Source: Lentinula raphanica
Taxonomy: Eukaryota; Basidiomycota; Agaricomycetes; Agaricales; Omphalotaceae
Direction: 5' to 3'
Length of the DNA stretch: 64,000 nucleotides
Assembly (NCBI GenBank): GCA_027919835.1
Contig: JANVFP010000017.1
Coordinates: 1,076,041-1,140,040 of the forward strand
The translations under genes and the position numbers were made by a program. The notes below the pieces were generated by a model that worked only from the letters and a program-made list of their open reading frames with translations, ran no database searches and was not told the DNA's origin. This document shows positions 3,949-47,539 of this stretch, in pieces; within the stretch, counting starts at the first letter, position 1; every line of letters starts with the position of its first letter.

Positions 3949-4870
3949 GATTGTGATATTTTAGTATTCGAGTGAGAAATGAGAATTATATCCAAATGTA
4001 TGGACGTTGTTGATCCCGAGATTTAACACTAGAGGGAAAGCCAACTTGTCAGTCAACCGGTCAAAGGTCATGGCTCAGTGCAGACAGCTCACAGATGAGT
4101 GGAAATCGGCTCGATTTTCAGTGGGGTGAAGTCCCTGAATTCGACCAACGTGTTGTATACGCGCAAGAGGAGAAGGGTCGGAAATGTTCAAGTTGTCTGG
4201 TAGGCCAACAAATGGAAAACCAGCGAAGGCACTACGTGTTTTATTCGAATGGACGGTTTGTGTCTGAAAAAGTGATGCGGGACTGTCATGGTTTGGAAAC
4301 TGCACGTATAAGGCAACTATATGTAACATACCTGCGAAAGATAGATCGACCGGCGAGTCTATCTTCAAGTACCCAAGTTGACAGTTTTCAGCACGTCGTA
4401 GTTACTAGTAAAGAAATGTGCTGGGGTAGAGTTAGGGAGTTAAATCGACTCTTGGCCGGGGCCCACCTTTTGGGCAAAAATCCCTCCGGACGCCTTGATA
4501 AGGACTGATAGTGCTGTGTTCTGAATTGGCTCTTATTGGCTTCCCGGCGCTACAGCCTCCAACGGTGCATATGAGACGGAGGGTTTAACGAGGAAAGAAG
4601 CATATTGTCTGGCAAGCAAGGGTATTGTCGAAATGCAGAAAGAATGGAGCTGATAAGTAACATTATATGATTGCGTACAATACTGAACCAACGACCCAGC
4701 AGTTTGGACGTTAAGGCCTAACCAAAAGAATTATGATATGATGGAAGTTGGAACTGTGAAAAGAGTGAAGATGATTAAAAACAGAGTCCAAATGTTTTGA
4801 CAATCCGATTCGCCGTCCGACTACATTGTCCGTTCAACCTGATACACAAGAGGTCGGAAGAACTACGAGC
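3949..4870. other. Intergenic region without a supported gene
   Basis: About 920 bp between two minus-strand genes. Open frames on both strands (plus 4095-4508, minus 4075-4368) overlap each other, lack domains and lack convincing splice partners, so no gene is called. The region presumably holds the promoter of the downstream gene and the 3' end of the carboxylesterase. Confidence 0.45.
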
Positions 4871-30185: not shown

Positions 30186-30189
30186 TCGG
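30186..30189. repeat. Target-site duplication, left copy (TCGG)
   Basis: TCGG directly abuts the outer end of the left LTR and recurs directly outside the right LTR. Removing the element plus one copy joins the interrupted coding exon in frame, which supports the duplication. Confidence 0.75.
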
Positions 30190-31888
30190 TAACGAGGTAT
30201 AAAGTCGGTTCTTAGTATAATGCCTTATGACAGGTCACTTAGCACGAACACAGAGTACGACTTCACGGATTCGTCAATCAAATTGTATTTATAGCGAGGT
30301 GTGGGGCGTTGTCAGAGATTCCGCACTATCTTATATCTCGAGTCGAACGCAGTCTTGTAAGATCTTTTAGATCAGCAATACTGGTCAGCAGAACGAAGTG
30401 ACACGGATATACCAGTCGTAAGATCTGGACTAAGGGGTTTGTTTTGAGTGGCTTCCACTCGGATAAGGGGTTTTAGGCTCGGAAAGCAACGGGGTACCAG
30501 ACGTTATGGTAGACCAATCGATTCCGCTCCCGGGTGAAGCAGTACTGATCACTATTCTCAGTAAAACCTCGAAGATCACGCAGATCACCAATCACTACGT
30601 GTCAACTTGAACAGAGCCACCAAAACTCTGCACGTTCACTCGGCACAACCTGAGACCAAGTCCTCTGTATCTCCGGAACGGAGTCTACCTTCAACTAGCA
30701 AGTGACAGACACCAAGTCAAACCACTCAAAAGTCGGGCTTATCGCGATGAAGTAACACACTTAATCTGCAAGGTCCGGTACGGCTTAGAAGCCTTTACTC
30801 CCACGTATGGATGAAAAGGATTACCAGTTCAGAGAGATCTGGGCGCGAAACTTATTTCATTTGTGCGGATACAGGTCTTTAAGTACACTACGAAAAGTCC
30901 AATACCCGTATTTGTCCTTGATCTAGTAGATCTAGCTATTTCTACGGACGGAGTCCGATAATATACACTTACATAGTAAAATATGACTGAAACGATACAA
31001 ACACGCAAGGAAATAGTAAAGAAAACAGAGAAAAAGATGAAACTTGTCCGTATTCCGTCGTACTTTCGCCAGATCTAGAAGACCAAGCAAGTTCCGACCA
31101 TGGTCTGTGCGGCATCCACATGCTAGGGTGCCTAACTCGTCAGAGTGGCGCCTGCCTGTGTTGCTCAAGTGTTTCCGACGAATTTGCTTCCGCGGAATAG
31201 TAGTGGTCTCCCCAAGTTAATGAGATAGACTCGTCACAGTGGTTGATCTCACGGATCAGGTAGGTCTGGTCCGTAGCTTTCGAACGGTATGCATATAGCC
31301 TGGTGTTCTGGAGCGGACAACGAAGATAAATGCTTCAGAAGTGTTTTCCATAGGTTTCCGCGCGTTTCCGTGAGTGCTGGTCAAAGCTGTACATAGCATA
31401 CGCTATATCCCAGTTTAGAACGTGAACATATGCGTGTTTCCGCTGCGGGTTTCACCCGTACTGCCACGGAAATGCTAGATCATCATGTTTCCGACGGTTT
31501 CCGCTACTTTGCGTAGGGTTTCCGTGTGGTAACTCGTCCGGATAGGCTCTCATCGTGTCTGATCTGCTAGATCAAGTGAAATTTCCGTCATCACAGCCAA
31601 GTACCAAACTCAGTTGTGCCGATCCGGCAGATCTTGATACTAAGTCGATATTCCCTTGGTGTGCTCGTACCAGTAGTCAGCATTCTTGAAGGATCCCCGA
31701 CCAAGGGTGCGAGCAATAGCTCTAAGTGGATATTCATGGCTGATCCTGCCAAAGGATCTGTATCCTAGCTTATACTGATACAAGTTTGACTGCTAGTTCG
31801 GGCTCACTACAGTCCTTATTGATACTATGCAACGGTCTAAGTTGATCTTTTTGATCATTGCACGCCTGCGCGGAAAAACCGCGCAACA
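30190..31888 (-). repeat. Long terminal repeat (3' LTR of the minus-strand element)
   Basis: On the minus strand it begins TGTTGCGCGG at 31,888 and ends CCTCGTTA at 30,190. It matches the copy at 45,837-47,535 at a constant offset of 15,647. It contains seven GATC-N5-GATC motifs and many TTTCCG hexamers. The 78-residue frame inside (30,932-31,168) has no motif and is duplicated simply because the LTR is duplicated. Confidence 0.93.
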
Positions 31889-31896
31889 TCTCCCCC
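31889..31896 (-). other. Polypurine tract next to the 3' LTR
   Basis: On the minus strand GGGGGAGA runs directly into the LTR start TGTTGCG, as needed to prime plus-strand DNA synthesis. It is part of a 14-mer (plus strand CTCCCCCAAACTAA, 31890-31903) that recurs twice more inside the element. Confidence 0.75.
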
Positions 31897-32344
31897 AAAC
31901 TAAAGATCTGACCGTCCCCGGTCATCGCTATGGGTAGTGTAGGCTCGTATCCCTTGAAAGGAGTGGTACTGTAGCTGATCCGACAGATCAATCACTTCTC
32001 CGCAACATTCTGACTTGATTATACCCGGTGATCTAACAGATCAAGTTGATCCGTTGATCTTAGCACCCGTACCGACAACTCCGCTGTCTTCCTGTCGAAG
32101 ACGCTAAGTCCTCGGTTTGTTATCGGCGCTTAATTTCCGAGTGTGATATCATGACGTAAATCACGCTTCTAATTCTATCACATCACATACACACTTCCTC
32201 GAAACAACTTCTTTTCAACATTTTACATACTATCCCTATGCCTAGGCCTGGGATTAGTAAGTGCTGACAAAGGTTCAACGGACTTGGAAAAATTTCTAAG
32301 TTCGTTTCTTCCTTCCTTCCATCGTTGTCCCCATCCTCGACGCG

Positions 32345-35166
32345 ATGGCTGCATCTTCCCGTACTGCTGCCACCAAGCCATCGACTACGAAGAAGGCCAC
32401 TGGAAACCGAGTTTATGGAGTAGCGCCAATCCGTCCTCCGTCGTTTTCACCCGATTTCGAAGAGCCAGCTTCTGCTACTTCGGTCATGGTTTACAACGCT
32501 GTTCGTGCAGTAGGCGACACTCCCTCTGACAGGTCTGCACTTTTTCTCCCAGCTTCAGCTGAGGAGTGCTCCGTCCTCGTTAATAATTTTCGCCGATACC
32601 CCAATTCTGCCCCTCCTGCCTTTCATCTGGCACGTTACACCAGTCCCGAGAGACTCGACTTTCGCAATGTAATGGCCGCGCTCAGCACTTCCCCGGCGCC
32701 GGCCACTTTTTACCCACCACGCTATGTTCGAACTTGTTCGGTTTTCGCAGAGGGTCGCGCTTCCACCAGTGAGGGTCTCCATCTATACCAAGCGCTGGTG
32801 ATTTTGCAAAAGGCCTTCGTCAAGATCATCGGAGGTCACCATGCCAAAGCTGAGAATGGTCGGCGCGTCTTACAATTCACGAACCATCCCAATTTTTCTG
32901 AGTGCTTGGTACGTACTCTCTACCGCCGAACCTTCTTTTCCAGCCGCTAACCATTGCCCAGCGCTATTATCACGAACATTGGCATTATACCAATAATTGC
33001 CCTCTATTTGCACCACTGCTTATCGCCCTCGTTTGCGATTTCTGCGAGGAACACTTATCCCCTGCCGAATACAAGAAGCGTGTTTACGATAGCAAGGCGC
33101 GAAAAGGGCTTGGTATGAGCTCCAAGACTCGCGAGCGGGTCAAGGTAGTAGTAGTTCCGGCCCTGCCCATCTCATTCTTGCTCATTCGTCCACCCTCTAG
33201 GCCTGCGTTGAAGACCTTCTCACCCTCAAGACCCTAGCCATTCCCATTCCCTTTGATCCCAATACACGAGAGGGACAGATCATTGTGACTGTAGCCAGCA
33301 AGGGCACCGAGGCTGATCAGATTCGGCAACCCTATACCAACGTTGCTTTTCGGCCAGATCCAGCCAAACGCGTCCTGACACCCAAGCCTGAACCATCCGA
33401 CAAACCCTCGAAATCTTCAAAGGCCCTTTCGGCCCCGCCACGCCCTGACACCCCCGAGGAGGAGGAGGACACGGAATCCGATGGTTCGTCTTTCCACGGC
33501 GCCTCTGTACGCCCTTCCCCCGAGCGGTTTCCTGTCCCCAGTTCACCGATTGCCGTGGACGAGAATGACGAGGAGGCGAATGATCTATTTTCTCCCTTTC
33601 CCGAACCTCCGGTCTTGGGACAACGTCAGAGTATCGCTCGCGCAGCTAAATCGAAGCCGCTGGTGCCCGAGGTTATCATGAAAGCCCCGGGCCCCGCTCC
33701 TAAATGGTCAAGAGTGTCTCCTGTCGAAGACCCCGATCCCGTAAGCCGTCTCCTATGTCTATCCTCTATTGTCTTCTCATGCTGTTTCCTCTGTCACCCC
33801 TCACTAGCCCTTTCGCGAACCTCCTGCCAAGAAACGTCGCACTGCCGTCAAGGCTCAGACCGCTATGCCTGCTTCTCAGGATCCGTCTGGTGCATCTCTC
33901 CCCACTCGGATCCAAGAAGGCGAGCCCGATTACTTTGACGACGACGATATTAAAACATCTGGCCATCAACATTTCCTGACCAATCCCGACTTCAAACCCA
34001 AGGCTCCCTTTTCGCAGTTGATTCGCAAGACCATTGCTCAAAACCCTCGAGCCCCCAAACTTCCTTTCCTCCGGCGTCCCAAATGGCAGATCTCAGAGGA
34101 AATGAAAGACTTCGGCGCCTTTATCAATTCGGCGGATACTTCGTTCTCTTTGCAAGGCCTTAGCCGGTACAACTATCTCACCTCCAGACCCTTGCAAGCC
34201 TCCGCCAGTAACACCCTTCCTTCTCCGGAGGCGTTACTTTCTCCCAACAATTGTTTGACTTGTCTTAGTCGTGGGATGGTTTGTGAGGGGGGCACCAAGA
34301 TTGGCGGGCCTTGCGGTCATTGTGACCGTACCCATCGCAATTGTCCCAGCTGTCTTGGCCTGGATGAACACCGGGACCGCTTTCTAGCCATTCACAACAC
34401 CGTCCAAGGATACCCAGCAGGTAAGCCTAGTACTCATTTCTTCTAATCTGCTGCTTAACCGGTCTTAGGGTACTCTGGTTCACTAGACCGTTTCCGCAGC
34501 ACGCTCGACGAAATGCGCAACGTAGCTTCTTCTTTTGGTACAATCTTCGGGGATGTCCGTCGTCGCCTCGCGCTCAATTTGCAGGAGATACACTCGAACG
34601 GTTTTGACTTCAACGTCGTCCTTTCCAAATGGGTGGAGGACAACCCCAATCATCCCCTCGACTACGACCTCCTCACCTGGCTGGCAACCTTCTTCGGTTG
34701 GGATTCCGCCTGTAACCTGTCTTCTTACCTGGTTGATCCCACCGATTCGGCTCGCTTGGAGGAGTTCCTTCGATCTAACGAGCTTCCTACGACCGAGGTT
34801 ACTGAACCGGGTGCACTGGACCCCATCGTCCCATCCTCCTCGGTTCCTCAGCTTCACCACGACTCTCCTGTGTCCCCTGCCAAATCCGCGATCCATGTCC
34901 CTGCCTCCCCGCTTACATCACGTCGCCGACCCCTCGCCGCGGTCCCTGACAATTTTAGTCAGGACCGCAAATTCCACACTCCCCTCCCCGAATCTATCAC
35001 CGTTGACAATGAGGAGTTGGACGGGGAAGAAGGAACTTCCCGGACCTCGGTAGGGCGGACTTTGCTAGCAGAGCATGACGACAGCGACGAAGACGATGAC
35101 CTGGATGTGGAAATTATCAACGACGACACCTCTGGCCTTTCCAAACCCAAAAAGCCTCGTAAGTAG
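32345..35166 (+). CDS. Antisense cargo gene A: nuclear-type protein with a Zn2Cys6-like cluster
   Basis: Exons 32345-32908, 32962-33144, 33201-33740, 33808-34420 and 34469-35166 total 2,598 bp, in frame, giving 865 residues. All four introns have clean GT-AG ends. The N-terminal 240 residues look globular (RYYHEHWHYTNNCPLFAPLL). A long proline/acidic linker follows, with a basic patch (PPAKKRRTAVK) that could be a nuclear signal. From about residue 578 there is C-x2-C-x6-C-x9-C-x2-C-x6-C, the spacing of the fungal Zn(II)2Cys6 binuclear cluster, plus an extra CxxC end. A helical region (TLDEMRNVASSFG, ALNLQEIHSNGFDFN) and an acidic tail complete it. It lies inside the retrotransposon but on the opposite strand to gag-pol. 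Similar proteins exist in mushrooms, but I know no assigned function. Confidence 0.75.
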
Positions 35167-35931
35167 CACATTGAACGGACTCCTAGTATGAGCCTTCTAT
35201 ATTACTTTGAGAATTTTTGCGACCTTTTGTATATATCCACGCTTGCTCGGTCTCTAGTATACACCTAGTAGACCATTTTGTTCTGAATGCATATGCCCAT
35301 GTGGGCCCTCGTATCTTGTCCTTTTACAGTCTGATCCCATCCTTAAGAGCCTATAAGTCACTTAAGATCCTTGAGATATTGTCTAAGTTATCCTTGTGAG
35401 TTTAGGGCCCTTGTCCTTGGCTTTTACTTGCTAAACAATATAAGTATCTTTATTGATAACTTGTTGTTCTGCACAGTGTCCGCCTCGGTCATTCTATGCC
35501 CTGTCTAAGTCTTTTTGCATTATATTTTCCGTCGATTTTTAAGCCGAAGTTACGTTTGATCTGCTAGATCATTTTGGTCTGCTAGATCAAACCCATCAAT
35601 GTTGATTCTTCGGTTATCAAGTTGGTGGTTGCAGCCTCATATGGCATGTTAAATCCATTGGGCTTTACAAATTGCAAGCTGCGTCGGTTTTAGATCTAAG
35701 TCTTTTGCGTTGTACGCATGCTTAAGCTGTCAATGAGCACAGGTCTTTTAGATCTCGTAAAATTTTCATGAAATTTTCTGAAATTTTCGAAATTCTTGAA
35801 TTTCGAAATTCTTGAAACACCATGTGTCCCCTCCCCCAAACTAAAGCTCAGCAGTCCCCTGCTGACCCGAAGCATCAGAAAAGGTATAAAAGCCCTTGAT
35901 CTAAGAGATCCGACTCCCAACTCAACGAAAA
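35167..35931. other. Spacer between the two antisense cargo genes
   Basis: Contains the 3' end of gene A, the polypurine-like 14-mer at 35,831, two GATC-N5-GATC motifs near 35,558-35,595 and a run of GAAATTTTCGAAATTCTTGAA-type inverted near-repeats around 35,770-35,820. It should carry the promoter of gene B. No further gene is seen. Confidence 0.5.
35831..35844 (-). other. Internal polypurine-tract-like copy 1
   Basis: The plus-strand sequence CTCCCCCAAACTAA is identical to the 14-mer beside the 3' LTR, and both copies are followed by AAG. It lies in the spacer between the two antisense genes. See findings. Confidence 0.6.
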
Positions 35932-37953
35932 ATGGCTCCCAACTTCGAGTACCACAATCTCCCTATCTCGCTTGAAGCTGACTTTGCCAACTGGTGCGTC
36001 GACGCGGAGTACTGGGCTGCTCGTGTTAGCGATGACAAGAGCCTGGCCTGGCAAGGTGCCAAGTACAGTTCCAGCAAGGACAAGGTCGAGTTCACCACGT
36101 CCAACAAAACGATCTTTCTGAACGATGTCCGTTGCGCATACACTCATCTGGTACGGAAATCGTTTGATCTGCTAGATCTAACAAAACTAACCATTTTCCG
36201 TTAGCTCATTCGAGTGTCCCGCGACGCTGCGTGTATGAACAAGGAATATCTGCGGGCGTACGACAATCTCGCGGAGGAATTACTTTCCGCCGTGAATGCG
36301 TACCGCACTATCCGTGACGAGATCCCTAAGCAGTTTCCCAAACTCTCTGAAGAGGGAGGGAAGAACGCTGAGATCGTCAGTTTCTACATTCAGCTGAACG
36401 ACCTTCGTCGCAAAAAGCTCCGTGAGGACCAAGGCAGACAGGGATCTCCTGCTGTCAGTACTCGCGGACCTAGTGTTCCACCTGCTGATCCTGAAGGACC
36501 GTCGAAATCCAAGTCGAAAGGCAAGGAAGTTGCGACTGATCCAGCAGATCCAGCAGTTTCTGATGCTGACGCCAAGTTCATGGCCGAGGTGGTGCGTTTC
36601 CGCAACTGTTTACGAAGATTCATTTACTAAGTAAAGGTCCCAGGATGCTGATCTTGCAGAACATGGTCCTTCTCCTCCAAAAGGTCCTCGAGGCGCACTT
36701 GCTAACCATTTACGAGGCCGCGGACTTCCCATGCGAGGCCACTTCCGTAGTCCACGCGAGCAACGCTTTGAAATGCAAGACTCACTGCGTATGGGTGTTC
36801 CTGTTCCGCGGTATGACCCTCCGGTAAGTATTGGACCTTGATCTGTTAGATCAGCTGCTAAATGTTTATCCAGCCTCGTCGTGCTGAACTCGTCATCGAT
36901 CATATCATTGGTATGGACGAAAGGATCAAGCACGCCAAGGAGGAACGTGAAAAAGGCGAGAAGGGGAAGAAGACCGCGGAAGCGACTCCTCCTCCTCCTA
37001 CCAGGCCCTCTACTCGTTCCAAAAGCAAGAAGAAATCCCCTGACGACGAACCGGCTGCTCTGGCAGATCAGGATGTCTCTGTACGTGGCTGGTCTTGTAG
37101 ATCAGACAAGTTTATGACTAACCCGTGCCATAGATGGCTGACGAAGTCGAGGATTCTACTCCTGCGAAGGCTAAGACCAAAACCAAAAAGCGCGACACCG
37201 TCGACGACGACGATGACACTCCGAAGTCTTCCAAGACCAAGAGCAAGCGCAAACGTTCCGAACGCGATGTTGGTCCCGCGGACGGTGATGAGACTGAGCG
37301 GGCTCTGTCTCCTCAAGCACATAGTACTGTGCACGCTGTAACCGCGATCTCCCAGCCTCGTGCTGTTGGTGAAGATCTGATTAAGAGGGTGAAGTATTCG
37401 TTGGAACTCGCGGATACTAGTGAGTACCACTTCCATTTTCCGCTTTTTCGTACGGACTTCTACGGAAACTCGTTGATCTGCTAGATCACGCATTTTCCGT
37501 TAGATATTTTCGCTTTGCATAGTCCGGAGTCCTTCCGCAAATCTTCGTCGTTTGCTGATTATTGTTACAGGTACCCCCGACGATACAGATCATCGAGATC
37601 TCGTGCAACTTCTTCACAACATCGGACTCGCCCACAACCCGGAGGTTGAATCGTACACCGAAGAGCAGTACAATGCTTTCATCAACTTCCATACGACCCA
37701 ACTCTTCGACTGTGTTATGAAAGCTCGTTTCTATGCACACCGTGGGGAGGCTAGTCAACGGATCATCGACAACGCCCGGGCTGCTCGGAAGGCTGGTGAA
37801 CCTCTGCCCAAAGACGAGGACACCACCATGACTCCTGCCGGCGTTGAAGAGGTGTACGTGTTTTCCGCACCACCGTCGCTGCCACCCGTAATTAAAATTG
37901 CGCAGACAGACTTAGAGGATCCCGAAATGCAAGGGCCACGCTCCGCACCTTAA
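35932..37953 (+). CDS. Antisense cargo gene B: uncharacterised basic/acidic protein
   Basis: Exons 35932-36150, 36205-36591, 36644-36823, 36874-37080, 37134-37419 and 37571-37953 total 1,662 bp, in frame, giving 553 residues. The N-terminus MAPNFEYHNLPISLEADFAN leads into a helical, tyrosine- and tryptophan-rich 140-residue region that may be a folded domain. The middle has two lysine-rich blocks (KSKSKGKEV and SKTKSKRKRSERD) that look like nuclear signals. The C-terminal 150 residues (DDTDHRDLVQLLHNIGLAHN...) are again helical. No catalytic motif is visible. Several introns contain GATC-N5-GATC and TTTCCG motifs. It lies on the plus strand within the minus-strand retrotransposon, between gene A and the integrase. 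Confidence 0.72.
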
Positions 37954-38125
37954 GCAAGTGCTTATCGAGGCTGACCATCTAGATCATCGTTCATTCTGCC
38001 CTGTCGCCTATTTTTATACCTGTACTTTTGTCAAGTCAAGTATCATTGGTAGTTTTTGAGGTAATCCAGTGGCAACTAAATTCCTCGAGTGATTATTAAG
38101 ATAGAATAAGTTGAAACATCGCGGA

Positions 38126-38139
38126 AACTCCCCCAAACT
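38126..38139 (-). other. Internal polypurine-tract-like copy 2
   Basis: The same plus-strand 14-mer CTCCCCCAAACTAA, here 26 bp beyond the integrase stop codon. It forms the boundary between pol and the antisense cargo region. Confidence 0.6.
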
Positions 38140-38164
38140 AACTGATCTGTTGGATCAGGCATGT

Positions 38165-40093
38165 TTAGAAAGATTTCCGACGACCACTTCGTCGTGGACC
38201 CTTCGGTAGAGACGGATTCGCCTCTTCCTCTTGATCTTCGGACTCAGCAGCCTTCAGATCCTCCGGATCAAGCTGTTCAACAGGCGGAACCAGTGGTGGT
38301 TCAACGGAATTCGACTGATCATCACCGGAAATGTTTATTCGAGGGACAGTACTGAAAATAAAGTCCTCCACTTCCTCAGGTTCGTCTTCCTCATCCTGTA
38401 CCATAGATTCTAACTGCTCGGGCGACAGATCTATCAGATCATGTATATTTTCCGGCAGTTCAATCGGTTCGTAACGAGCATGATGCGGGATCACACGGAA
38501 AGCACCCACTTTGTCTTTAAGTACAGTGCCATCCATTTCCGCAATGATATATGCACCTCCTCGTGTCCTCCGGATAACAACCATAGGTCCACGATATCGA
38601 AGGTACATTTTCCGATCCAAATTCTTCTCGATAGCAGTGTTCCGTACCTGTACTAAGGTTCCCGGTTTGAAATCCCAGTCCTTAATGGTGTACTTGTACT
38701 TTTCCTCGAAAACTCTCGCTTCTCGACGTTTGTTCTCGTCGATCCGTGATTTCATGTTCTCGACGAAGGAACGATGTTTGGAAAGAGCCTGAGCCCGGAA
38801 GCCCAGTAACTCTTCCCGTGATAGTATTCGATTTGGTGGATTGACCAAATATGTAGATTCAACAATATCGAAAGGTAGCAGAGGTTCAGTACCGGTAGCT
38901 ACGAAGTATGGCGAACAGCCTAAACCTCTCCGTGCAGTAATACGATCAGCCCAAAGTATCGGTTTCAAGAAGTAGTACCATTTTGACAGATCTCCCGCAC
39001 ACGCTTTCGCAAGTGCTTGTCTCAGATCAAAGTGAGCACGTTCAATCTTTCCGTTAGCTTGTGAATTGTAAGGCGATATCTGTATTCCACGGATCCCGTA
39101 TTTCTGTTCGAGCCATCTCAACATAAGCTTCATCTGTGGTGCATTGTCCGAGACCACGATTTCCGGACATCCCCATCTACATATGATGTCTTCAAAGAAC
39201 CATTCCGCGAGTGATCTCGCGTTTTCAACTCTCAGTGCCCTAGCTTCCGACCAACTCGACAATGAATCCCTTCCGTGAACGATATATCTACAACCATTAC
39301 TAGCCGGAGACATAACCATAGTATCGATATGTATCTTTTGGAACAAGGACGGCGTGAAGGTCACCGTTGGAGGGATCCGTACCAAAGACCTAAGTCGATC
39401 TTGGCAGGCTTGACATGTTTTCACATACCACTCCACGTCTTTCTCCAGATCAGGCCACCAAAACCTCTTTTCCAAGAAGTCTTTCGTAGCATATGTGCCC
39501 TTGTGTCCCAAAGCATCATGAGCACTGTGCAATAGATACATTCGTTTTTCCGGTTCAACCACTAAACGCAGTTGATCTGTGGATGGTTTCCGATGGAACA
39601 GTCGACCTTCCGAGTCTATTGAAAAGGACAGCGTTTTCCGGTCCATTTCCGCTCGTTGTCTCTTGTCCAACTTCGCGAATTGTTCAGCATTCGGGTCCTT
39701 AAGCCATGCTCGAATTTCCGGTAACTGCTGATCTAGACGATTTCCGCCATCCGATCTATGAGATATCGGATATTTGTGATCAGGTCCCCAAGTAGCATTG
39801 TCGGGGATCGCAGTATACTGCAGAAACTGAGAGGTTAAAGGCATTCCCGAGGCCTCTAAACGTTCTTTGAGGAATGCATGCTGGATCTCTTCCTCCCGGG
39901 CAACTTGAAGATCTTCCGCAAACTCATCTTCAATGGTCTCGCAAAAGTATCCTGTCCGGGGATCTATATGATCTTTGAATGATTCAAAGGGCAATGGATC
40001 ATCCGCTTCGTCCGCTTTGAAGAACCTAACGTTGTTGGAGTCATCTGCATCTTCTGCTAGATCCTCTTCGGTTTCCCGACGAGGGTAGTCCAA
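38165..40093 (-). CDS. Retrotransposon integrase frame
   Basis: Reading frame of about 640 residues. The zinc-binding HHCC domain is HSAHDALGHKGTYATK...CQACQ. The catalytic core has the D,D(35)E triad in KIHIDTMVM, IVVSDNAPQ and NGKIERAH. Downstream, LRYRGPMVVIRR resembles the GPY/F module. The C-terminus is an acidic tail ending in a basic patch, with no chromodomain. The frame begins without its own ATG near 40,093. It is offset by one base from the RNase H frame, so it must be expressed as part of pol. It integrates the cDNA copy into chromosomes. Confidence 0.88.
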   Translation of the reverse strand: MDYPRRETEEDLAEDADDSNNVRFFKADEADDPLPFESFKDHIDPRTGYFCETIEDEFAEDLQVAREEEIQHAFLKERLEASGMPLTSQFLQYTAIPDNATWGPDHKYPISHRSDGGNRLDQQLPEIRAWLKDPNAEQFAKLDKRQRAEMDRKTLSFSIDSEGRLFHRKPSTDQLRLVVEPEKRMYLLHSAHDALGHKGTYATKDFLEKRFWWPDLEKDVEWYVKTCQACQDRLRSLVRIPPTVTFTPSLFQKIHIDTMVMSPASNGCRYIVHGRDSLSSWSEARALRVENARSLAEWFFEDIICRWGCPEIVVSDNAPQMKLMLRWLEQKYGIRGIQISPYNSQANGKIERAHFDLRQALAKACAGDLSKWYYFLKPILWADRITARRGLGCSPYFVATGTEPLLPFDIVESTYLVNPPNRILSREELLGFRAQALSKHRSFVENMKSRIDENKRREARVFEEKYKYTIKDWDFKPGTLVQVRNTAIEKNLDRKMYLRYRGPMVVIRRTRGGAYIIAEMDGTVLKDKVGAFRVIPHHARYEPIELPENIHDLIDLSPEQLESMVQDEEDEPEEVEDFIFSTVPRINISGDDQSNSVEPPLVPPVEQLDPEDLKAAESEDQEEEANPSLPKGPRRSGRRKSF

Positions 40094-40410
40094 CCTCCCG
40101 GAGGTCTTCGAGACAAACCATCAGGTCCAAAGGTTGCTCCTTTGACATGGATCAAATCGAAATGGAATTTACGGATATCTTCAATCCAACGGTTGATCGT
40201 AGCGTTTGGACCACTACTCGGATTTTCAAGCATTCCTTGAATATAGCTAGCATCCGTTTCCACCGTGAGTTTCCGACATCCATAAAGAAGATAGTGTGTT
40301 GCTCGGAGAGCAACCTTCAAACCATAGAGTTCACGCTTAGATTGAGAAAACCGAGCTTCACGTTCATTATACGGGATGGATCCGAAGTAATTATAGAAAT
40401 CTTCGTCTGA
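40057..40410 (-). CDS. RNase H C-terminal segment, out of frame with RT
   Basis: This frame continues the RNase H domain: FYNYFGSIPYNEREARFSQS, then ELYGLKVALRATHYLLYG, then VETDASYIQGML (typical RNase H aspartate region), then HVKGATFGPDGLSRRPP, the usual end before integrase. It is one base off from both the RT frame and the integrase frame. One extra G near 40,407 and one near 40,098 would fuse all three. No canonical slippery heptamer is seen at either place. Base-calling error, a defective copy, or unusual frameshifting are all possible. Confidence 0.75.
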   Translation of the reverse strand, partial: SDEDFYNYFGSIPYNEREARFSQSKRELYGLKVALRATHYLLYGCRKLTVETDASYIQGMLENPSSGPNATINRWIEDIRKFHFDLIHVKGATFGPDGLSRRPPGGWTTLVGKPKRI

Positions 40411-42338
40411 TCTACAGGATCAATCTGATAGATGTAAAATCCCGTACCCATGTAAGAACTATCCACTGCTAAGTGTGTTTCCCAGTCATATACTATGACT
40501 CTTAAGGCTGGTGCATTACGGACTCCGTCTTTCAACAGGTCCATGGCTATGACATGCTCATCCTTCCACTCAAACGGAATATTCGCCGTTAATTTGGTCA
40601 AAGGTGAGGCTTTCTTAGCGTAATTGTGAATGAACATCCGGAGCTGACCAACAGTTCCCAGAAAGGCTCGGACCTGTGTCTTAGAAGAGCACGGAGGCCA
40701 AGTCAGAACCGTAGTTGCGATTCTATCTTCCGGTTTCTGTCCTTCGTACGTGCAACGGTGTCCAACCACTACAGTTTCAGCGCAACACAGGAATGCTTTA
40801 GGTCCCGAGAAGGTTCCGCCGCAATACCGCATCCGCTGAATGATTCGGTTCACATTTTGGAGATGCTCCCAGACAAATCGTCTGATCAAAGGATTTTCAG
40901 GGATAGTTTCGTATCCGCCACCCGGTAATTCATAACGAGTCCCGGGGCCTCTGATAGGAACATCATCGACGTATGGAATAGTATATTCCGGAATTTCATC
41001 TCGCATCATGTAAGTTACATCGTCATGGAATATCGGAACAGAGTTCGTCCAACCCATAGGCAACTTTACGAGACGGTGTGGTCCGTACGGAGTTTGGAAT
41101 GTCGTCAGATCTCGCGAACTAACATCGAGTGGTCGTTCATCATAACCCACATAGATATCCAACAAACCACCACAGGCACGACCCGCAAAATGACGAGCAA
41201 TATCCGCGGTAGCAGGAGGAATCCCGGAGTGTTGAATGGTCACCTTGTTCAAGGGTTCCAAACTATGTACTAAACGAAGACTCGTTCCATCCTTCTTGAC
41301 CACACAAAACCATTTTGAACGATAGCTCGAGCAGGATGGTTCATAAACTCCAGCATCAATCTTATCCTTGATGATCTTACAAACCTTTTCGAAGATTCCG
41401 GGAGGAATTGGAATATTTCGTTCGACCCAGGGCTCATGAGGTATGACCGGAATTTTCACGGGAGGAAAGAAGTCCTCTCTGAATGTTCCGCCCTCGGAAG
41501 CTTCCCAAGCAAAACCCATTTCCTGCAACTTCATCATATGATGAACTAGCTTCATTTCCTCGTCCGTAAGGAAACCTTCCGCATGGTTTTTCTCGATGAT
41601 CTCTTTCCGTTCTTGCGTATACCGAATACCCGGCGTGAATTCCGGAGGATGAGTTGGTAGATCTGGTAGATCAGCCAAAGGATCCCCGTAAATGTGTCTC
41701 CGCACACGGAATTCTTCCGGTAGATCAGCCTTGACAGGGCGAACTTTCACCGCTACAGGCTTATATTTTCGAGAACCGAAGACCGAAACTGGCTGATCTG
41801 GCAAAAACACATCATTATAGGCGCATATATGCTGGTCAATCGTCTCGTTCTTGAGTTCCCAGAGCTTAACACGATGCATCGCAGCCTCCAAATCTTGGGT
41901 CATTGAAGACAATTCCGCATCTTTTGTTTGATCTACTTGATCTGGTAGATCTTCCGTGTTATCATATGGACGAGTTAACCCGTGTAAGTCTTTCCACCTA
42001 ACATCCTTTGTCATGGACTGGTAAAAGGTCTCTTTCAGGTCCTCAACGGTCGGATCAGCTCTAAATCCTTCCTTCCATGGGTTGATCACACGATTTTGTT
42101 GATGATCTACACCTTTGTTCAGGTATAGTGATATGGTTTCGGCAATTCCGGGGTGGGACTTCTCGATCGTTGGCCGACAGCATTGTACATACACGTCCGC
42201 TAATTCTTCATCTGAGAAGGTACCTCGTTTCACCTGATTCGACTCTATAACCACTTCCTCCGCTTGAGCATCCCAGTACCCACTAAGAGCGATTTCTACC
42301 TCTCCCTGGTCGCTACTCAGATCCCAGAGGTTATTCAA
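40317..42338 (-). CDS. Retrotransposon reverse transcriptase and start of RNase H
   Basis: Frame of about 673 residues. RT motifs in order: KKDGTSLRLVHSLEPLNK, then GLLDIYVGYDE, then PYGPHRLVKLPMGWTNS, the catalytic PYVDDVPI (YVDD), then FSGPKAFLC, then VRAFLGTVGQLRMFI. The RNase H begins at HLAVDSSYMGTGFYIY. The frame opens with a TTG codon that overlaps the protease stop, so it has no independent start. It is reached from the protease frame by a -1 step at AAATTTT. It copies element RNA to DNA and degrades the RNA strand. The frame turns to nonsense after about 40,400. Confidence 0.9.
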   Translation of the reverse strand: MNNLWDLSSDQGEVEIALSGYWDAQAEEVVIESNQVKRGTFSDEELADVYVQCCRPTIEKSHPGIAETISLYLNKGVDHQQNRVINPWKEGFRADPTVEDLKETFYQSMTKDVRWKDLHGLTRPYDNTEDLPDQVDQTKDAELSSMTQDLEAAMHRVKLWELKNETIDQHICAYNDVFLPDQPVSVFGSRKYKPVAVKVRPVKADLPEEFRVRRHIYGDPLADLPDLPTHPPEFTPGIRYTQERKEIIEKNHAEGFLTDEEMKLVHHMMKLQEMGFAWEASEGGTFREDFFPPVKIPVIPHEPWVERNIPIPPGIFEKVCKIIKDKIDAGVYEPSCSSYRSKWFCVVKKDGTSLRLVHSLEPLNKVTIQHSGIPPATADIARHFAGRACGGLLDIYVGYDERPLDVSSRDLTTFQTPYGPHRLVKLPMGWTNSVPIFHDDVTYMMRDEIPEYTIPYVDDVPIRGPGTRYELPGGGYETIPENPLIRRFVWEHLQNVNRIIQRMRYCGGTFSGPKAFLCCAETVVVGHRCTYEGQKPEDRIATTVLTWPPCSSKTQVRAFLGTVGQLRMFIHNYAKKASPLTKLTANIPFEWKDEHVIAMDLLKDGVRNAPALRVIVYDWETHLAVDSSYMGTGFYIYQIDPVDQTKISIITSDPSRIMNVKLGFLNLSVNSMV

Positions 42339-43813
42339 AAATTTGGTTGCGGAACTTTCTCTGCCTCCTCGTGAGTGTCTTCCCGTCTTGTTTCGGGTTG
42401 CAACTGTTGAGTTGGCTGTGATACTTTTCGTTCCACCACCTTCCTTGGTGCTCTCGGTCCATGTCCTTTCGGATATGTACCCATGGTATACCGTTTTCCA
42501 GTATTCGGATCCGTAATCGTAAGTTCCTGATCACCCGATCCAAAAGTCTGAATGACACTCTCAGTTAACACATCAAACGGACGTCCCAACAGTATTTCGA
42601 AGGGAGCCTTTTCTTGAACATGTAACTGCAAATACACTGTGACTGGTCCAAATCGAAAGGGCACATTTCGGGCTAAACCTTTGGTCCGCGCGATCCCGCC
42701 ATGTACATTTTGCATCTGTATGGTGATTCCGGGATCCCAACCTAGACCTAAGCCTAACGCCACGCTCATATCGATTGCGACTATCTGTGATCCTGAGTCC
42801 AGGAGGTTCTCTACTTCGAGATCTTCCCGATCATTCACAACAGGCCACACTGCACGGAGACCATTGCCTATGGTAGCAACTATGGTCATATCCCGTCGTT
42901 CATCATTCTCGTCTACATCACTCAAGAATGATTCTACTGGATCTACTTGAACAAACGCTCCTGCTTTCATCCCATCCCGATCCTCAGATAATCTTTCAAA
43001 AGCCCAAGCTTCGGGTAATGCTAGATCATCCACGGAAATGACTTGTTCGTCTTCGGAATCATCATTTGAAAGTGTTTCCGTAGCTAGATCTTGTTGATCA
43101 GCCACGTTCAGCAGCATTTTCTTTCGATCTTGCGGAAGTACTCGCTTATTCCGTATCTTTCGTGCTACGATCTGCCTGATCTTCCCCGAAAGCTGTAAAG
43201 CTTCGGAAGAAGTCAATTCAATCGTCTTTCGCACTATCCGGTCAGCAAGCTCTTCCTCTAGACCAGGCGTAAACAGTTCATTCTGCAGCCTGTATTTTGG
43301 TGCCTTCGAAGATCCCTTAGATTCAGGTACCTTCTCCGGCTTTGGTTGATTTCGAGGGTGAGGTGTAACTTCTCTGGGCTGAACATCATCAAATGGTCTT
43401 CTCGGATTTTCCGTACGAGGAGGTGACGGATCGCGGAATCGGACTTGCTTCGATTTCCGTTGATCTGTCTGATCAGGCTCACGTCCCGAGCCTAAAGCAC
43501 TCTCATCCGTTAAATCGTCCATGGTCACTGACTGTATCCTTTCCAAAGCAGCTTCCCTCAGTGATTGAGAAGAATCGGGGTCTGATCCAGCAGATCTGTC
43601 ATGATTAGGCGTAGAATTGTCCGGATTGGACTTTGGTTTTTCGGATGTTTTGTTTTTACTAGGGTTATTTCGATCTATGGGTATATGCACCCCGTCAAAG
43701 CGTTTATTCTTGACGGCAGGTATTGCTTTTGGTGAGTTAGGCTTTGGGGCACCCTCATGAGTTGTTGCCTGTTGCTGAGACCGTGTCCTCGGCCCAGAGG
43801 TCAACTCAATCAT
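42335..43813 (-). CDS. Retrotransposon aspartic protease frame
   Basis: 492-residue frame with an ATG at 43,813, nine bases past the gag stop codon. The N-terminal 270 residues are charged and disordered. The retropepsin active site is ENLLDSGSQIVAID (DSG triad), followed by the flap/second hydrophobic region and FEILLGRPF, a typical ILLGRP motif near the protease C-terminus. It cleaves the Gag-Pol precursor. The frame is also open upstream through the gag stop, consistent with entry by -1 frameshift. The C-terminal extension ends at a TGA directly after AAATTTT. Confidence 0.88.
   Translation of the reverse strand: MIELTSGPRTRSQQQATTHEGAPKPNSPKAIPAVKNKRFDGVHIPIDRNNPSKNKTSEKPKSNPDNSTPNHDRSAGSDPDSSQSLREAALERIQSVTMDDLTDESALGSGREPDQTDQRKSKQVRFRDPSPPRTENPRRPFDDVQPREVTPHPRNQPKPEKVPESKGSSKAPKYRLQNELFTPGLEEELADRIVRKTIELTSSEALQLSGKIRQIVARKIRNKRVLPQDRKKMLLNVADQQDLATETLSNDDSEDEQVISVDDLALPEAWAFERLSEDRDGMKAGAFVQVDPVESFLSDVDENDERRDMTIVATIGNGLRAVWPVVNDREDLEVENLLDSGSQIVAIDMSVALGLGLGWDPGITIQMQNVHGGIARTKGLARNVPFRFGPVTVYLQLHVQEKAPFEILLGRPFDVLTESVIQTFGSGDQELTITDPNTGKRYTMGTYPKGHGPRAPRKVVERKVSQPTQQLQPETRREDTHEEAEKVPQPNF
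42338..42344 (-). promoter_or_regulatory. Candidate -1 frameshift site AAATTTT at the protease stop
   Basis: The zero frame reads CCA AAT TTT TGA. The heptamer A AAT TTT has canonical slippery form in phase and abuts the stop. A -1 slip reads AAA TTT TTG and joins the RT frame. The alternative is a lost T in the T5 run. Confidence 0.45.
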
Positions 43814-43821
43814 TGGATTCC

Positions 43822-45393
43822 TCAGTTTCCCGACTCGTTCGTGTACACCGTAGCCACACCATTGCTAGATCTCCCTTGCACCATTTCCGCCAGATTGGCA
43901 ATGACCATCCAAGCTGGGGATCCGGCCAACTGTTCCGAGTAATCCTCATTGTCCGGGATCATCTCGTTCATCATCGTCGAAACCTCGGGCCATCCTTTGG
44001 CCTGACCATATTTCATGATCTTTTGGTATCTACTCTCACTTCCGAAGTTGTTCGGTAGCGGAGACCCATCCTTCAACTTAAGACGCTTTGGATCTTGCGG
44101 ATCACGCATAATCCAACCTTTCCCTAAGAGTTCCAAGAACATTGGACAACTTTGCATCATATGATTCGGTTCCCGACACAGGAAACACAACATCTCAGAC
44201 CTTTGACCTTGTGCATTATTCGGATTCGTGTTAATGATTCCGCGGGGAGGCCCACTGTTTCCGGGATTACCACTACCAGAAGCGACAGCATGGGGCTGCA
44301 CCCGTTGCGCAGGTTGAACATTTCCGGTCTTGATGTTAGCCAGCATTTGAGCCAACGTCTCAAGTTCCTCTTTGTAGGTAGCCTTAAGTGCTCCCAAATC
44401 TTTGACCAACACACTGTACTGGTCCCTATTTGCAGCTAGTGCTCTTTCCGTTTCCTCGGAAGCCTCTCGTTTCACTTCAACAGGCTTAGCTGGAGACCGG
44501 AAGAAATGCGAGAGATCCGGTACTTCTTCTTTGATCACCGGAGGACCACCAATCGGAACGTATACTCCTCCTCTTGAGTGGGTTTCCGCATTGAAGACCA
44601 CACCATCCCGACTTGTTACCGTCCGGTACAACGATTCCAAGGGTGGGTGCCTTGCTACGGCCTCTGCTGCTTCCTTGTACTCTATGAACAGATATGGATC
44701 ATCGACCCGACGTTTCTCTACGCGGAAAGCAGGTACCTGCTGTTGCACCTTACGGTTCACAGCTTTCCGTAACTCGTCATCGAATGCTGACAGGAAAAGA
44801 GACACCAGTTCCGTGTTTCCTATCGCCGGAGGCGGTTTCAACAACTTATTGGCTTCTACCTCCATCAACAAACAATATCCGAGCAACCTATCTCCGTCCC
44901 GGACACCCAAAGGAGCATAGTTCTGTACGATCTGCAAGAGCGTATTCTTCGAACCCATTGGTCTCCCTAGAGATGCTGGGAATCTTTCACACAGGGAACG
45001 CAGGAAACAGTCCGCGTCTTCCCTTCCCTCCTGCGCGCCGGGAAGATGCTCGAGAGCCTGCTTGGTCTGAAGGGTCATCCAAGAAAAGATCTTTTGCATC
45101 TTCACCTTCTCGGAGGTAACTTCCGTAGCCTGGAACGTGTTCAAACAGAACCTCACCCACTCAGGGATCATGCTCGGATTGGCCAAGTCCAGGATCATAG
45201 CGGTTTTGTGCGTAAGCGGAAACTTGGTATTGTTATACTCTGCTTGTTCCGCAGGAGTCAGTTCAGGAGGACCAAGCATCCTTATGATGTCGAGTTGATC
45301 CTCCGGTCGTTTTTGTTGGGCAGCCGGGTTTGCTGGTGCGTTAGCATTCGCTCCCGCGGCTCCCTGATCATTTCCGTTATGTACTTCGGACAT
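43822..45393 (-). CDS. Retrotransposon Gag (capsid/nucleocapsid)
   Basis: The first ATG in frame is at 45,393 (MSEVHNGNDQ). The frame is open without an ATG back to about 45,735, so a longer product from a non-AUG or spliced start is possible. The middle part (WVRFCLNTFQATEV to LLGYCLLMEVEANKL) fits the helical Ty3-type capsid. The nucleocapsid has one CCHC zinc knuckle, CFLCREPNHMMQSC. It packages element RNA into virus-like particles. The stop TGA at 43,824-43,822 follows the heptamer GGGAAAC immediately. Confidence 0.87.
   Translation of the reverse strand: MSEVHNGNDQGAAGANANAPANPAAQQKRPEDQLDIIRMLGPPELTPAEQAEYNNTKFPLTHKTAMILDLANPSMIPEWVRFCLNTFQATEVTSEKVKMQKIFSWMTLQTKQALEHLPGAQEGREDADCFLRSLCERFPASLGRPMGSKNTLLQIVQNYAPLGVRDGDRLLGYCLLMEVEANKLLKPPPAIGNTELVSLFLSAFDDELRKAVNRKVQQQVPAFRVEKRRVDDPYLFIEYKEAAEAVARHPPLESLYRTVTSRDGVVFNAETHSRGGVYVPIGGPPVIKEEVPDLSHFFRSPAKPVEVKREASEETERALAANRDQYSVLVKDLGALKATYKEELETLAQMLANIKTGNVQPAQRVQPHAVASGSGNPGNSGPPRGIINTNPNNAQGQRSEMLCFLCREPNHMMQSCPMFLELLGKGWIMRDPQDPKRLKLKDGSPLPNNFGSESRYQKIMKYGQAKGWPEVSTMMNEMIPDNEDYSEQLAGSPAWMVIANLAEMVQGRSSNGVATVYTNESGN
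43825..43831 (-). promoter_or_regulatory. Candidate -1 frameshift site GGGAAAC at the gag stop
   Basis: The zero frame reads TCG GGA AAC TGA. The heptamer G GGA AAC has the X XXY YYZ form in the correct phase and abuts the stop. Slipping back one base reads GGG AAA CTG and joins the protease frame. An alternative is a lost G in the G run, which would have made one fused frame. Confidence 0.5.
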
Positions 45394-45816
45394 ATTGTTG
45401 GGTAAAAACAGTCGTATCAAATCAAATGGTTCGGGTTGTAATGTAGGATCTGAACTAGATTGCGGATCTGGTCCAACAGTAGCTGCCTTCTGTCTACCGT
45501 TTCCTGGCACTACGTTAGATCTCTTCGTTACTGGTTGTTCCGAAGATGGTCTAGGAGCTCTCCCGTTATCTGGATTGCTAGTACTCGCTCTTCCGAGGTT
45601 TCTCGGATCGTAAACAGGTACAGAGGGTTTCTTTGTTGCGCGCTTTCGCTGATCTGAAGCTTGTATCGCTGGATCAAAGAAATCTGCTGAGCCCGCGTTC
45701 TTCGAAGTCCGAGTAGCTCTTGGAGCTATTTTTAATGATCAAATAAATTCGATCAAAGGCAGTAGTTTTGAGAAATCAAGAAGATCTCTCGAGTTCGACC
45801 AAAATATAGATTCCAC

Positions 45817-45834
45817 CCCTCGCGGTGGGCTCCA
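45817..45834 (-). other. Primer-binding site candidate
   Basis: Two bases inside the 5' LTR, the minus strand reads TGGAGCCCACCGCGAGGG. A leading TGG complementary to a tRNA 3' CCA, followed by a G/C-rich acceptor-stem-like sequence, fits a tRNA primer. I cannot name the tRNA without a search of the genome's tRNA set. Confidence 0.6.
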
Positions 45835-45836
45835 GA

Positions 45837-47535
45837 TAACGAGGTATAAAGTCGGTTCTTAGTATAATGCCTTATGACAGGTCACTTAGCACGAACACAG
45901 AGTACGACTTCACGGATTCGTCAATCAAATTGTATTTATAGCGAGGTGTGGGGCGTTGTCAGAGATTCCGCACTATCTTATATCTCGAGTCGAACGCAGT
46001 CTTGTAAGATCTTTTAGATCAGCAATACTGGTCAGCAGAACGAAGTGACACGGATATACCAGTCGTAAGATCTGGACTAAGGGGTTTGTTTTGAGTGGCT
46101 TCCACTCGGATAAGGGGTTTTAGGCTCGGAAAGCAACGGGGTACCAGACGTTATGGTAGACCAATCGATTCCGCTCCCGGGTGAAGCAGTACTGATCACT
46201 ATTCTCAGTAAAACCTCGAAGATCACGCAGATCACCAATCACTACGTGTCAACTTGAACAGAGCCACCAAAACTCTGCACGTTCACTCGGCACAACCTGA
46301 GACCAAGTCCTCTGTATCTCCGGAACGGAGTCTACCTTCAACTAGCAAGTGACAGACACCAAGTCAAACCACTCAAAAGTCGGGCTTATCGCGATGAAGT
46401 AACACACTTAATCTGCAAGGTCCGGTACGGCTTAGAAGCCTTTACTCCCACGTATGGATGAAAAGGATTACCAGTTCAGAGAGATCTGGGCGCGAAACTT
46501 ATTTCATTTGTGCGGATACAGGTCTTTAAGTACACTACGAAAAGTCCAATACCCGTATTTGTCCTTGATCTAGTAGATCTAGCTATTTCTACGGACGGAG
46601 TCCGATAATATACACTTACATAGTAAAATATGACTGAAACGATACAAACACGCAAGGAAATAGTAAAGAAAACAGAGAAAAAGATGAAACTTGTCCGTAT
46701 TCCGTCGTACTTTCGCCAGATCTAGAAGACCAAGCAAGTTCCGACCATGGTCTGTGCGGCATCCACATGCTAGGGTGCCTAACTCGTCAGAGTGGCGCCT
46801 GCCTGTGTTGCTCAAGTGTTTCCGACGAATTTGCTTCCGCGGAATAGTAGTGGTCTCCCCAAGTTAATGAGATAGACTCGTCACAGTGGTTGATCTCACG
46901 GATCAGGTAGGTCTGGTCCGTAGCTTTCGAACGGTATGCATATAGCCTGGTGTTCTGGAGCGGACAACGAAGATAAATGCTTCAGAAGTGTTTTCCATAG
47001 GTTTCCGCGCGTTTCCGTGAGTGCTGGTCAAAGCTGTACATAGCATACGCTATATCCCAGTTTAGAACGTGAACATATGCGTGTTTCCGCTGCGGGTTTC
47101 ACCCGTACTGCCACGGAAATGCTAGATCATCATGTTTCCGACGGTTTCCGCTACTTTGCGTAGGGTTTCCGTGTGGTAACTCGTCCGGATAGGCTCTCAT
47201 CGTGTCTGATCTGCTAGATCAAGTGAAATTTCCGTCATCACAGCCAAGTACCAAACTCAGTTGTGCCGATCCGGCAGATCTTGATACTAAGTCGATATTC
47301 CCTTGGTGTGCTCGTACCAGTAGTCAGCATTCTTGAAGGATCCCCGACCAAGGGTGCGAGCAATAGCTCTAAGTGGATATTCATGGCTGATCCTGCCAAA
47401 GGATCTGTATCCTAGCTTATACTGATACAAGTTTGACTGCTAGTTCGGGCTCACTACAGTCCTTATTGATACTATGCAACGGTCTAAGTTGATCTTTTTG
47501 ATCATTGCACGCCTGCGCGGAAAAACCGCGCAACA
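45837..47535 (-). repeat. Long terminal repeat (5' LTR of the minus-strand element)
   Basis: Same 1,699-bp sequence as the left copy. Transcription of the element should begin within it, reading toward lower coordinates. A TATA-like box lies about 100 bp before its inner end (listed separately). Confidence 0.93.
45933..45940 (-). promoter_or_regulatory. TATA-like box in the 5' LTR
   Basis: TATAAATA on the minus strand, about 100 bp before the inner LTR end; the same box is in the other LTR at 30,286-30,293. The location suits a promoter with a short R-U5 region. The start site is not visible. Confidence 0.4.
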
Positions 47536-47539
47536 TCGG
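47536..47539. repeat. Target-site duplication, right copy (TCGG)
   Basis: The base run after the right LTR is TCGGG and the run before the left LTR is TTCGG, so four bases are shared. Five-base duplications are also common for this class, but here the fifth base does not match. Confidence 0.75.

Follow-up and report, generated by a model that had tools for sequence, protein, structure and literature searches.

Two intron-containing genes, here termed A and B, are carried in antisense by an LTR retrotransposon of Lentinula raphanica, within a window of 64,000 nucleotides, the whole stretch of DNA that was analyzed. Judged from sequence, both are very likely selected genes and standing parts of the element backbone in two related families. 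In addition, gene A is quite probably a multi-allelic cassette kept by balancing selection, and the two propositions taken jointly, structure with selection and a balanced A cassette, also appear fairly likely.

The element is bounded by a pair of identical LTRs, which form an exact 1701-bp repeat (30190-31890 and 45837-47537); the last 2 bp of this repeat belong to the target-site duplication TCGG, an unstranded feature at 30186..30189 on the left and 47536..47539 on the right. The sense of the element is that of the minus strand, with the 5' LTR at 45837..47535 and the 3' LTR at 30190..31888. The minus-strand frames are those of gag (43822..45738), protease (42335..43864), RT/RNase H (40317..42530) and integrase (38165..40120), and the Pfam matches follow the order Asp_protease_2, RT_RNaseH_2 and Integrase_H2C2, the second of these at 26.5 bits, under the curated cut-off of 29.8. 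No match to RVT_1 was obtained in the window copy at E 0.001, and the gag frame, which has no Pfam match, is placed first in the element by position only. The paired LTRs, the target-site duplication and the order gag - PR - RT - RNase H - IN are those of a Ty3/gypsy-like element. The preliminary description had reported breaks in pol. This holds for the junction between the RT and integrase frames, which is broken in the window copy and forms part of a single stop-free frame of 1455-1458 aa in eight other copies, but not for the protease, whose separation is native: at 20 other sites the 509-aa frame is again complete, uninterrupted by stops and distinct from the frame that it overlaps.

Genes A and B sit between pol and the 3' LTR, on the plus strand and thus opposite to gag-pol. 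Gene A (32345..35166) codes for 865 aa in five exons (32345-32908, 32962-33144, 33201-33740, 33808-34420 and 34469-35166), and gene B (35932..37953) for 553 aa in six exons (35932-36150, 36205-36591, 36644-36823, 36874-37080, 37134-37419 and 37571-37953). These models were derived anew from the sequence, with no template, and their ends and lengths agree with those of the preliminary description; its claims of two multi-intron plus-strand genes lying antisense inside a retrotransposon, with frames intact across nine introns, are thereby confirmed. All nine predicted introns are GT-AG, with lengths of 48-151 nt. The plus-strand promoter of gene A is presumed to reside in the 3' LTR (30190..31888), which is followed by a 5' region (31889..32320, plus strand) seen to be kept when copies are compared; the region upstream of gene B (35554..35931, plus strand) is likewise conserved.

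Neither A nor B has a Pfam match, and the TRP28 domain (PF04195) was not matched in either at E up to 1. Protein A contains a six-cysteine motif, CX2CX6CX9CX2CX6C (34252..34344, plus strand), which is invariant in all six protein A segments compared from the two families. Zn2Cys6 (GAL4-type) DNA-binding proteins have the spacing CX2CX6CX5-12CX2CX6-8C, a pattern into which the spacing in protein A fits. The Pfam family Zn_clus was not matched, at E up to 1, by the whole protein or by any of ten variants, and one of three short A segments gave a partial match (E 0.51). The predicted structural model of A has a mean pLDDT of 48 and yields no functional clue.

The two genes recur together in most copies, more often than chance would give. 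Among the family-1 matches listed, 44 of 47 A matches are followed by a B of the same strand and 44 of 46 B matches have A upstream, while antisense B lies within 25 kb of 61 of the 65 integrase matches listed; integrase is found within 6 kb of B in 35 of the 44 A-B pairs, and none of the 65 integrase matches has a same-strand B within 6 kb. These neighborhood counts used 74 of 82 A matches, 71 of 74 B matches and 65 of 74 integrase matches, the remainder being small or low-scoring pieces. A second family, with integrase 75-85% identical, carries A and B in the same antisense order (21 of the 27 A matches listed are paired with B), and six of the nine unpaired A matches of both families are on contigs that end before B would be reached. 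The comparison at the DNA level covers copies of one assembly. Among 25 A copies in which the gene falls within range, 13 are intact, two are open as far as read and ten carry a stop, shift or insertion; many copies are thus decaying. These broken copies and the lack of Pfam matches would suit an interpretation of the reading frames as chance or decaying passengers, yet this is scarcely credible given the purifying selection, the conserved intron positions and the presence of both genes in two families. For B, dS is 0.008-0.091 in seven copies and dN/dS is 0.01-0.20 in their 21 pairs. For A, 13 of 91 pairs allow an estimate of dN/dS (0.05-0.29) and the others are saturated; in the six pairs with dS below 1 it is 0.08-0.29. 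Wherever computable it is low, with no excess of amino-acid change. At the level of sequence comparison, these values show that the A alleles are under purifying selection where it can be measured. The dN/dS values, the survey of other copies, most of which carry A and B in the same antisense orientation, and the comparison of introns all support the earlier proposal that the cargo is inherited and selected as spliced antisense genes.

The hypervariable cassette consists of gene A and about 390 bp downstream of it (32321..35553, plus strand; the left border is approximate), and its borders are sharp. Within it the divergence between copies is saturated: pS exceeds 0.6 in 51 of 55 A pairs, and as synonymous sites are saturated the divergence of A cannot be dated. 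In contrast, the LTRs of family-1 copies are 98-99% identical (p 0.007-0.020 in 11 copies) and pS for B and integrase is 0.03-0.11. The distance between A copies is correlated neither with that between their LTRs (rho 0.15; as large in 492 of 2000 permutations) nor with that between their A 5' regions (rho -0.10; 1362 of 2000 permutations). The second family shows the same contrast, with median pS of 0.69 in A exon 4, 0.086 in B exon 1 and 0.072 in integrase (seven copies; six for B). The types of A are also common to different strains, the nearest relative being in another strain for 33 of 46 (strains told apart by locus-tag prefix), and the A of one copy, C4, is chimeric, being nearer to that of copy C48 over aa 1-480 and nearer to the window type over 481-720. 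Comparison of the copies thus shows many deeply diverged A alleles in a young, near-uniform backbone, reshuffled against that backbone and against each other. A divergence far above that of linked sequence, in alleles common to strains, is the pattern of a balanced multi-allelic locus. The hypervariability of A, which is not visible from one window, is the more surprising fact about this element.

Since the divergence is restricted to A, it might be ascribed to targeted hypermutation, whether RIP-like or by a diversity-generating process. Such an origin is highly improbable: the four same-type A pairs differ about as little as the backbone (pS 0.013-0.076), four-fold sites show no RIP-like bias, and dN/dS is low. 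Repeated capture of A, the donors being a host gene family or other elements, is very unlikely as well, although it would provide wide diversity within near-identical backbones: no host reservoir was seen, A is paired with B in the great majority of the matches listed for both families, and the positions of the A introns are common to both families and to the various A types. The sequences of these introns, conversely, are unrelated between A types, and the divergence is saturated at silent sites but constrained in the protein. Both features would be expected if A were selected at the nucleotide level, a new A sequence escaping homology-dependent silencing (siRNA or premeiotic) aimed at the resident copies. 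Gene A lies in the stretch that would be convergently transcribed, and dsRNA over A would result. This explanation appears rather improbable, as B is equally antisense and yet uniform, and the LTRs and pol remain long, near-identical targets.

A further property of the backbone is an array of the palindromic motif GATC-N5-GATC. Inside the element lie 38 of its 41 matches in the window, for which the shuffle mean is 2.09, and 31 GATC pairs have spacing 9, whereas no other spacing up to 40 has more than four. The motif is absent from the A cassette (0 in 40,856 bp of 13 cassettes), while the flanks of these 13 cassettes contain 111 sites over 24,322 bp on the upstream side and 99 sites over 25,927 bp on the downstream side. 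Its sites in the 5' region of A are at 31977, 32030 and 32039, and B introns 1, 3 and 5 also contain it. With one LTR counted, the backbone has 31 sites, including 12 in pol, two in B exons and one in gag. The single family-2 copy that was read has only one such site in 4.9 kb scanned and is rich in another word, AGATCTA/TAGATCT (29 in 7.8 kb; Markov mean 1.15).

Such an arrangement recalls the VANDAL/VANC elements of Arabidopsis, for which a short motif repeated through the element, introns and upstream regions included, and extra genes of variable exon/intron organization have been described (PMC5735166). The L. raphanica element shares with these Mutator-like elements the repeated short motif, in introns and upstream regions as well, and the extra genes; it differs in being an LTR retrotransposon, in having its palindromic motif in coding DNA too, and in that the variation is among alleles of one gene within one family. 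By analogy, B (or A) might bind the iterated motif and lift silencing of the family, and an arms race against the silencing machinery of the host might drive A to diversify. The motif density in both families would accord with this, as would B itself: copies of family 1 scarcely differ in it, but the identity of its exon 1 across the two families is 31-34%, a pattern that co-evolution with the motif would produce. We nevertheless regard such anti-silencing as unlikely. VANC motifs are mainly non-coding, whereas here the motif also occupies pol (12 in 5.7 kb) and two B exons; the family-1 backbone, too, has an elevated number of AGATCTA/TAGATCT (14; Markov mean 1.92, maximum 8), so that the motif words lack strict family specificity; the motif is constant across A types; and B has no recognized domain.

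For the maintenance of A, the reading that we prefer, tentatively, is a type system among retrotransposons, in which A would be a spliced specificity gene whose ancient alleles are swapped as cassettes and kept by the advantage of rare types. Co-resident copies would then differ in type, as regards incompatibility or immunity, and the common, family-wide and non-variable half of the system may consist of B and the motif array. In its preferred form, protein A would be type-specific, elements being limited or marked by a resident A of the same type, from which a rare type would escape; negative frequency-dependent selection would thereby maintain the old alleles. That such type-specific self-limitation is the cause of A diversity is possible at best, as is the biochemical role that it would assign to A, and the absence of an amino-acid excess in A means that recognition at the protein level is not directly indicated. 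A may be moved as a unit when template switching or gene conversion takes place within the identical flanks, and the same exchange may keep these flanks uniform up to the edge of homology. As both genes are antisense, their introns would be inert in the genomic RNA and hence survive reverse transcription. Retrotransposition reporters exploit the same principle, using antisense genes that keep their introns through the RNA life cycle, and the A/B arrangement looks like a natural case of this trick. Some A copies lack single introns exactly; this precise loss suggests occasional back-copying of spliced A mRNA, and the losses may record the times at which this happened.

Antisense genes are found in plant Ty3 elements, as the preliminary description had correctly remarked. 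Two reports describe the aORF-3R genes of Grande (gene23), RIRE2 and Retand (with TRP28), which lie antisense between pol and the 3' LTR in most copies and whose products are suspected of a nuclear or DNA-binding role; the main text of neither contains the word intron (PMC7264820, PMC11963269). Genes A and B resemble these, as there described, in position, orientation and presence in most copies; unlike them, the fungal element has two genes, nine predicted spliceosomal introns, no TRP28 and one hypervariable cassette. No account of a fungal element with spliced antisense cargo was encountered in a literature search, in line with the earlier impression that it is undescribed.

If an element encodes a factor that limits elements of the same kind, rare types would gain an advantage. 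In the copy-number control of Ty1, p22 limits its own element and derives from gag in sense, whereas A shows no relationship to the gag of its own element (hhalign probability 0.2%). Fungal mating-type and incompatibility loci, for their part, are multi-allelic recognition loci under balancing selection, and the A alleles are similarly deep, common to strains and marked by a sharp divergence peak at one gene; they differ in being distributed over dozens of mobile-element copies in one genome rather than at one host locus. Extra genes of retrotransposons are expected to evolve with their carrier, yet in both families, and across strains, A has an allelic depth far in excess of that of its vehicle. 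It thus becomes testable whether mobile elements can maintain, against one another, balanced polymorphisms of the sort that their hosts have at mating-type and incompatibility loci.

The LTR retrotransposon of Lentinula raphanica occupies the minus strand at 30190-47535 of the window (G000:C17:1076041-1140040 in a source assembly of 49.06 Mb and 75 contigs) and is delimited by its LTRs and a target duplication. The LTRs form an exact 1701-bp repeat, so the insertion is recent; the final two bases of the repeat are part of the TCGG target duplication. Minus-strand frames code for gag, protease, RT/RNase H and integrase, and genes A (32345-35166) and B (35932-37953) lie on the plus strand between integrase and the 3' LTR, with the exons originally proposed for both returning in the follow-up gene models. 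The breaks ascribed to the pol genes in the preliminary description were borne out only in part: the RT-to-integrase frame, 1455-1458 aa and stop-free in at least eight other copies, is interrupted in the window copy, whereas the protease frame overlap is native. Since a complete 509-aa protease frame free of stops is present in at least 20 other places, the overlapping gag and protease frames are by design. A third short frame (40057-40419) overlaps the broken RT/integrase junction, despite the identical LTRs. The placement of A and B resembles that in plant Ty3 elements, in which genes of antisense orientation lying between pol and the 3' LTR have been described (PMC7264820, PMC11963269); searches of the literature outside subscription sources yielded no precedent from fungi or L. 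raphanica. Near the element lie ordinary host genes with Pfam matches, for ribosomal protein L23 (18060-19097, plus strand) and a calcineurin-like phosphoesterase (23915-24769, minus strand), and outside it are local repeats of three copies spaced 134-135 bp (55956-56340) and two spaced 146 bp (53673-53964).

The expectation that other copies would carry both genes in the same antisense arrangement was upheld for most of the copies found. Among the best candidates of family 1, to which the window element belongs, B lies downstream in 44 of 47 A matches, A lies upstream in 44 of 46 B matches, and integrase is found within 6 kb in 35 of the 44 A-B pairs. Antisense B occurs at most 25 kb from integrase in 61 of 65 integrase matches (best candidates), and same-strand B within 6 kb of integrase in none of the 65. 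These pairing counts omit 8 A, 3 B and 9 integrase rows that were small or low-scoring, and the copy counts of all three are lower bounds, as only best candidates were scored. The starts of several contigs fall at or close to A genes (C1:117, C2:118, C21:676, C30:949, C40:2186), and thus the assembly breaks within these elements, which again makes the copy numbers lower bounds. For B exon 1, identity reaches 92% or more in 43 of 74 rows, counting that of the window itself. In a sub-family of three copies (C7:1602721-1610760, C28:684340-692381, C63:44586-52610), which match the window at about 96% identity across query 1053-7156, part of the LTR is repeated ahead of the A region and the B end is degenerate. 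A related family 2 has an integrase 75-85% identical to that of family 1 (76% where matched over full length) and pairs A' with B' in 21 of 27 cases; A' is 31-37% identical to A in exon 4, and B' 31-34% identical to B in exon 1.

Sequence comparisons argue that A and B are real genes. Among 25 copies with A in range (27 regions), 13 A frames are intact, two are open as far as read, and ten carry a stop, shift or insertion. Of 16 B frames tried, two lacked a recognised start and four were cut by the stretch end; seven of the ten full ones are intact. Neutral evolution, raised earlier as a point to check, is not seen in B (dN/dS 0.01-0.20 in 21 pairs; dN 0.001-0.009, dS 0.008-0.091), and the ratio for A is low where computable (0.05-0.29 in 13 of 91 pairs; 0.08-0.29 in the six with dS <1). 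The A models of four other copies equal database proteins, the same proteins having served as model templates.

Gene A is a hypervariable cassette (32321-35553, the left border approximate). Across 11 copies that offer both an LTR and a complete A, the mean LTR distance is 0.012 (range 0.007-0.0195) and that of the A 5' region, its last 30 bp excluded, is 0.026; A pS exceeds 0.6 in 51 of 55 pairs. In general A pS is 0.72-0.80, the random level, and integrase pS is 0.03-0.11 in usable pairs. The borders are sharp in both directions: over 8 copies, mean identity stays at 94.5-100% until the last 50 bp ahead of the A start, where it falls to 81-89%; over 10 copies, it is 45-78% between the A stop and 35553 and rises to 89-100% at 35554 and beyond. 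A distance correlates neither with LTR distance (rho 0.15, a value reached in 492 of 2000 permutations) nor with A 5' region distance (rho -0.10) across the 11 copies. Mutation seems no faster in A than in the LTRs, because copies of the same type differ about as much in one as in the other (A pS 0.013 and LTR distance 0.014 for C11/C24; 0.020 and 0.015 for C4/C31:539600). A itself is mosaic in sequence: per 60 residues, C4 A is 37-83% identical to C48 vs 26-61% to the window type over aa 1-480, and 83-90% to the window type vs 53-66% to C48 over aa 481-720. The 46 A proteins with 680 aa or more (those long enough among P0005-P0056, plus the window's) form 34 clusters at 90% identity, and 33 have their nearest relative under a different locus-tag prefix, six prefixes being taken as strains. 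RIP as the source of divergence is opposed by the four-fold sites, where all six kinds of substitution occur in three pairs, the more diverged of five compared. Escape of A from silencing at the nucleotide level is an improbable explanation. Family 2 repeats the pattern of a variable A beside uniform B and integrase in its median pS (A exon 4 0.69, B exon 1 0.086, integrase 0.072; 7 copies, 6 for B).

Introns 1, 2 and 4 of A occupy common codon positions across variants, with unrelated intron sequences, and splicing at matching places is also predicted for the single family-2 copy that was read completely. Intron 2 is absent from C23 A and intron 4 from C33 A, with no leftover bases relative to aligned proteins; intron 3 is absent from C23 and several other A types, in protein too variable to judge exactness. 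An extra intron lies within exon 3 in the C13 group, C33 and family 2. The simplest history would be a five-intron A ancestor followed by several losses. Losses as exact as these suggest that spliced plus-strand mRNA was copied back, and this would indirectly support splicing of the A introns.

The window contains 41 occurrences of the palindromic motif GATC-N5-GATC vs 2.09 in shuffles, 38 of them inside the element (LTR, A upstream region, B introns, two B exons, pol and gag). GATC pairs in the backbone, the element outside the cassette, number 31 at 9-bp spacing and at most four at any other spacing up to 40. The motif is absent from 13 A cassettes (0 in 40,856 bp), and their flanks hold 111 over 24,322 bp on the upstream side and 99 over 25,927 bp on the downstream side. 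A second word, CGGAAA, is likewise over-represented in the backbone, pol included (50 vs a Markov mean of 8.7). The family-2 copy has a single GATC-N5-GATC in 4.9 kb scanned and a related palindromic word, AGATCTA/TAGATCT, 29 times in 7.8 kb vs 1.15 expected, with none over the 2.9 kb of its A' gene; this word also exceeds expectation, though less strongly, in the family-1 backbone (14 vs 1.92). Motif arrays are known for VANC, the anti-silencing protein of Arabidopsis DNA transposons (PMC5735166). A VANC-like anti-silencing system is rather unlikely here. B or a host factor would be the likelier motif partner, since the words shift together with B from one family to the other and, inside a family, do not vary as A does.

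Protein A holds CX2CX6CX9CX2CX6C, invariant in six segments across both families, the spacing of Zn2Cys6 clusters; Pfam gives no confirmation of such a cluster in A. It also has a basic PPAKKRRT stretch and an acidic tail, and a weak structure model (mean pLDDT 48) places helical regions roughly at residues 90-265 and 605-730. A might be guessed to be nuclear and DNA-associated. Recombination in reverse transcription, or gene conversion, could transfer A as one unit by way of its identical flanks. The preferred reading, tentatively held, is type-specific self-limitation by A. Selection favouring rare types would probably keep the A types, and may be the simplest known cause of A coalescing far deeper than its flanks in both families.
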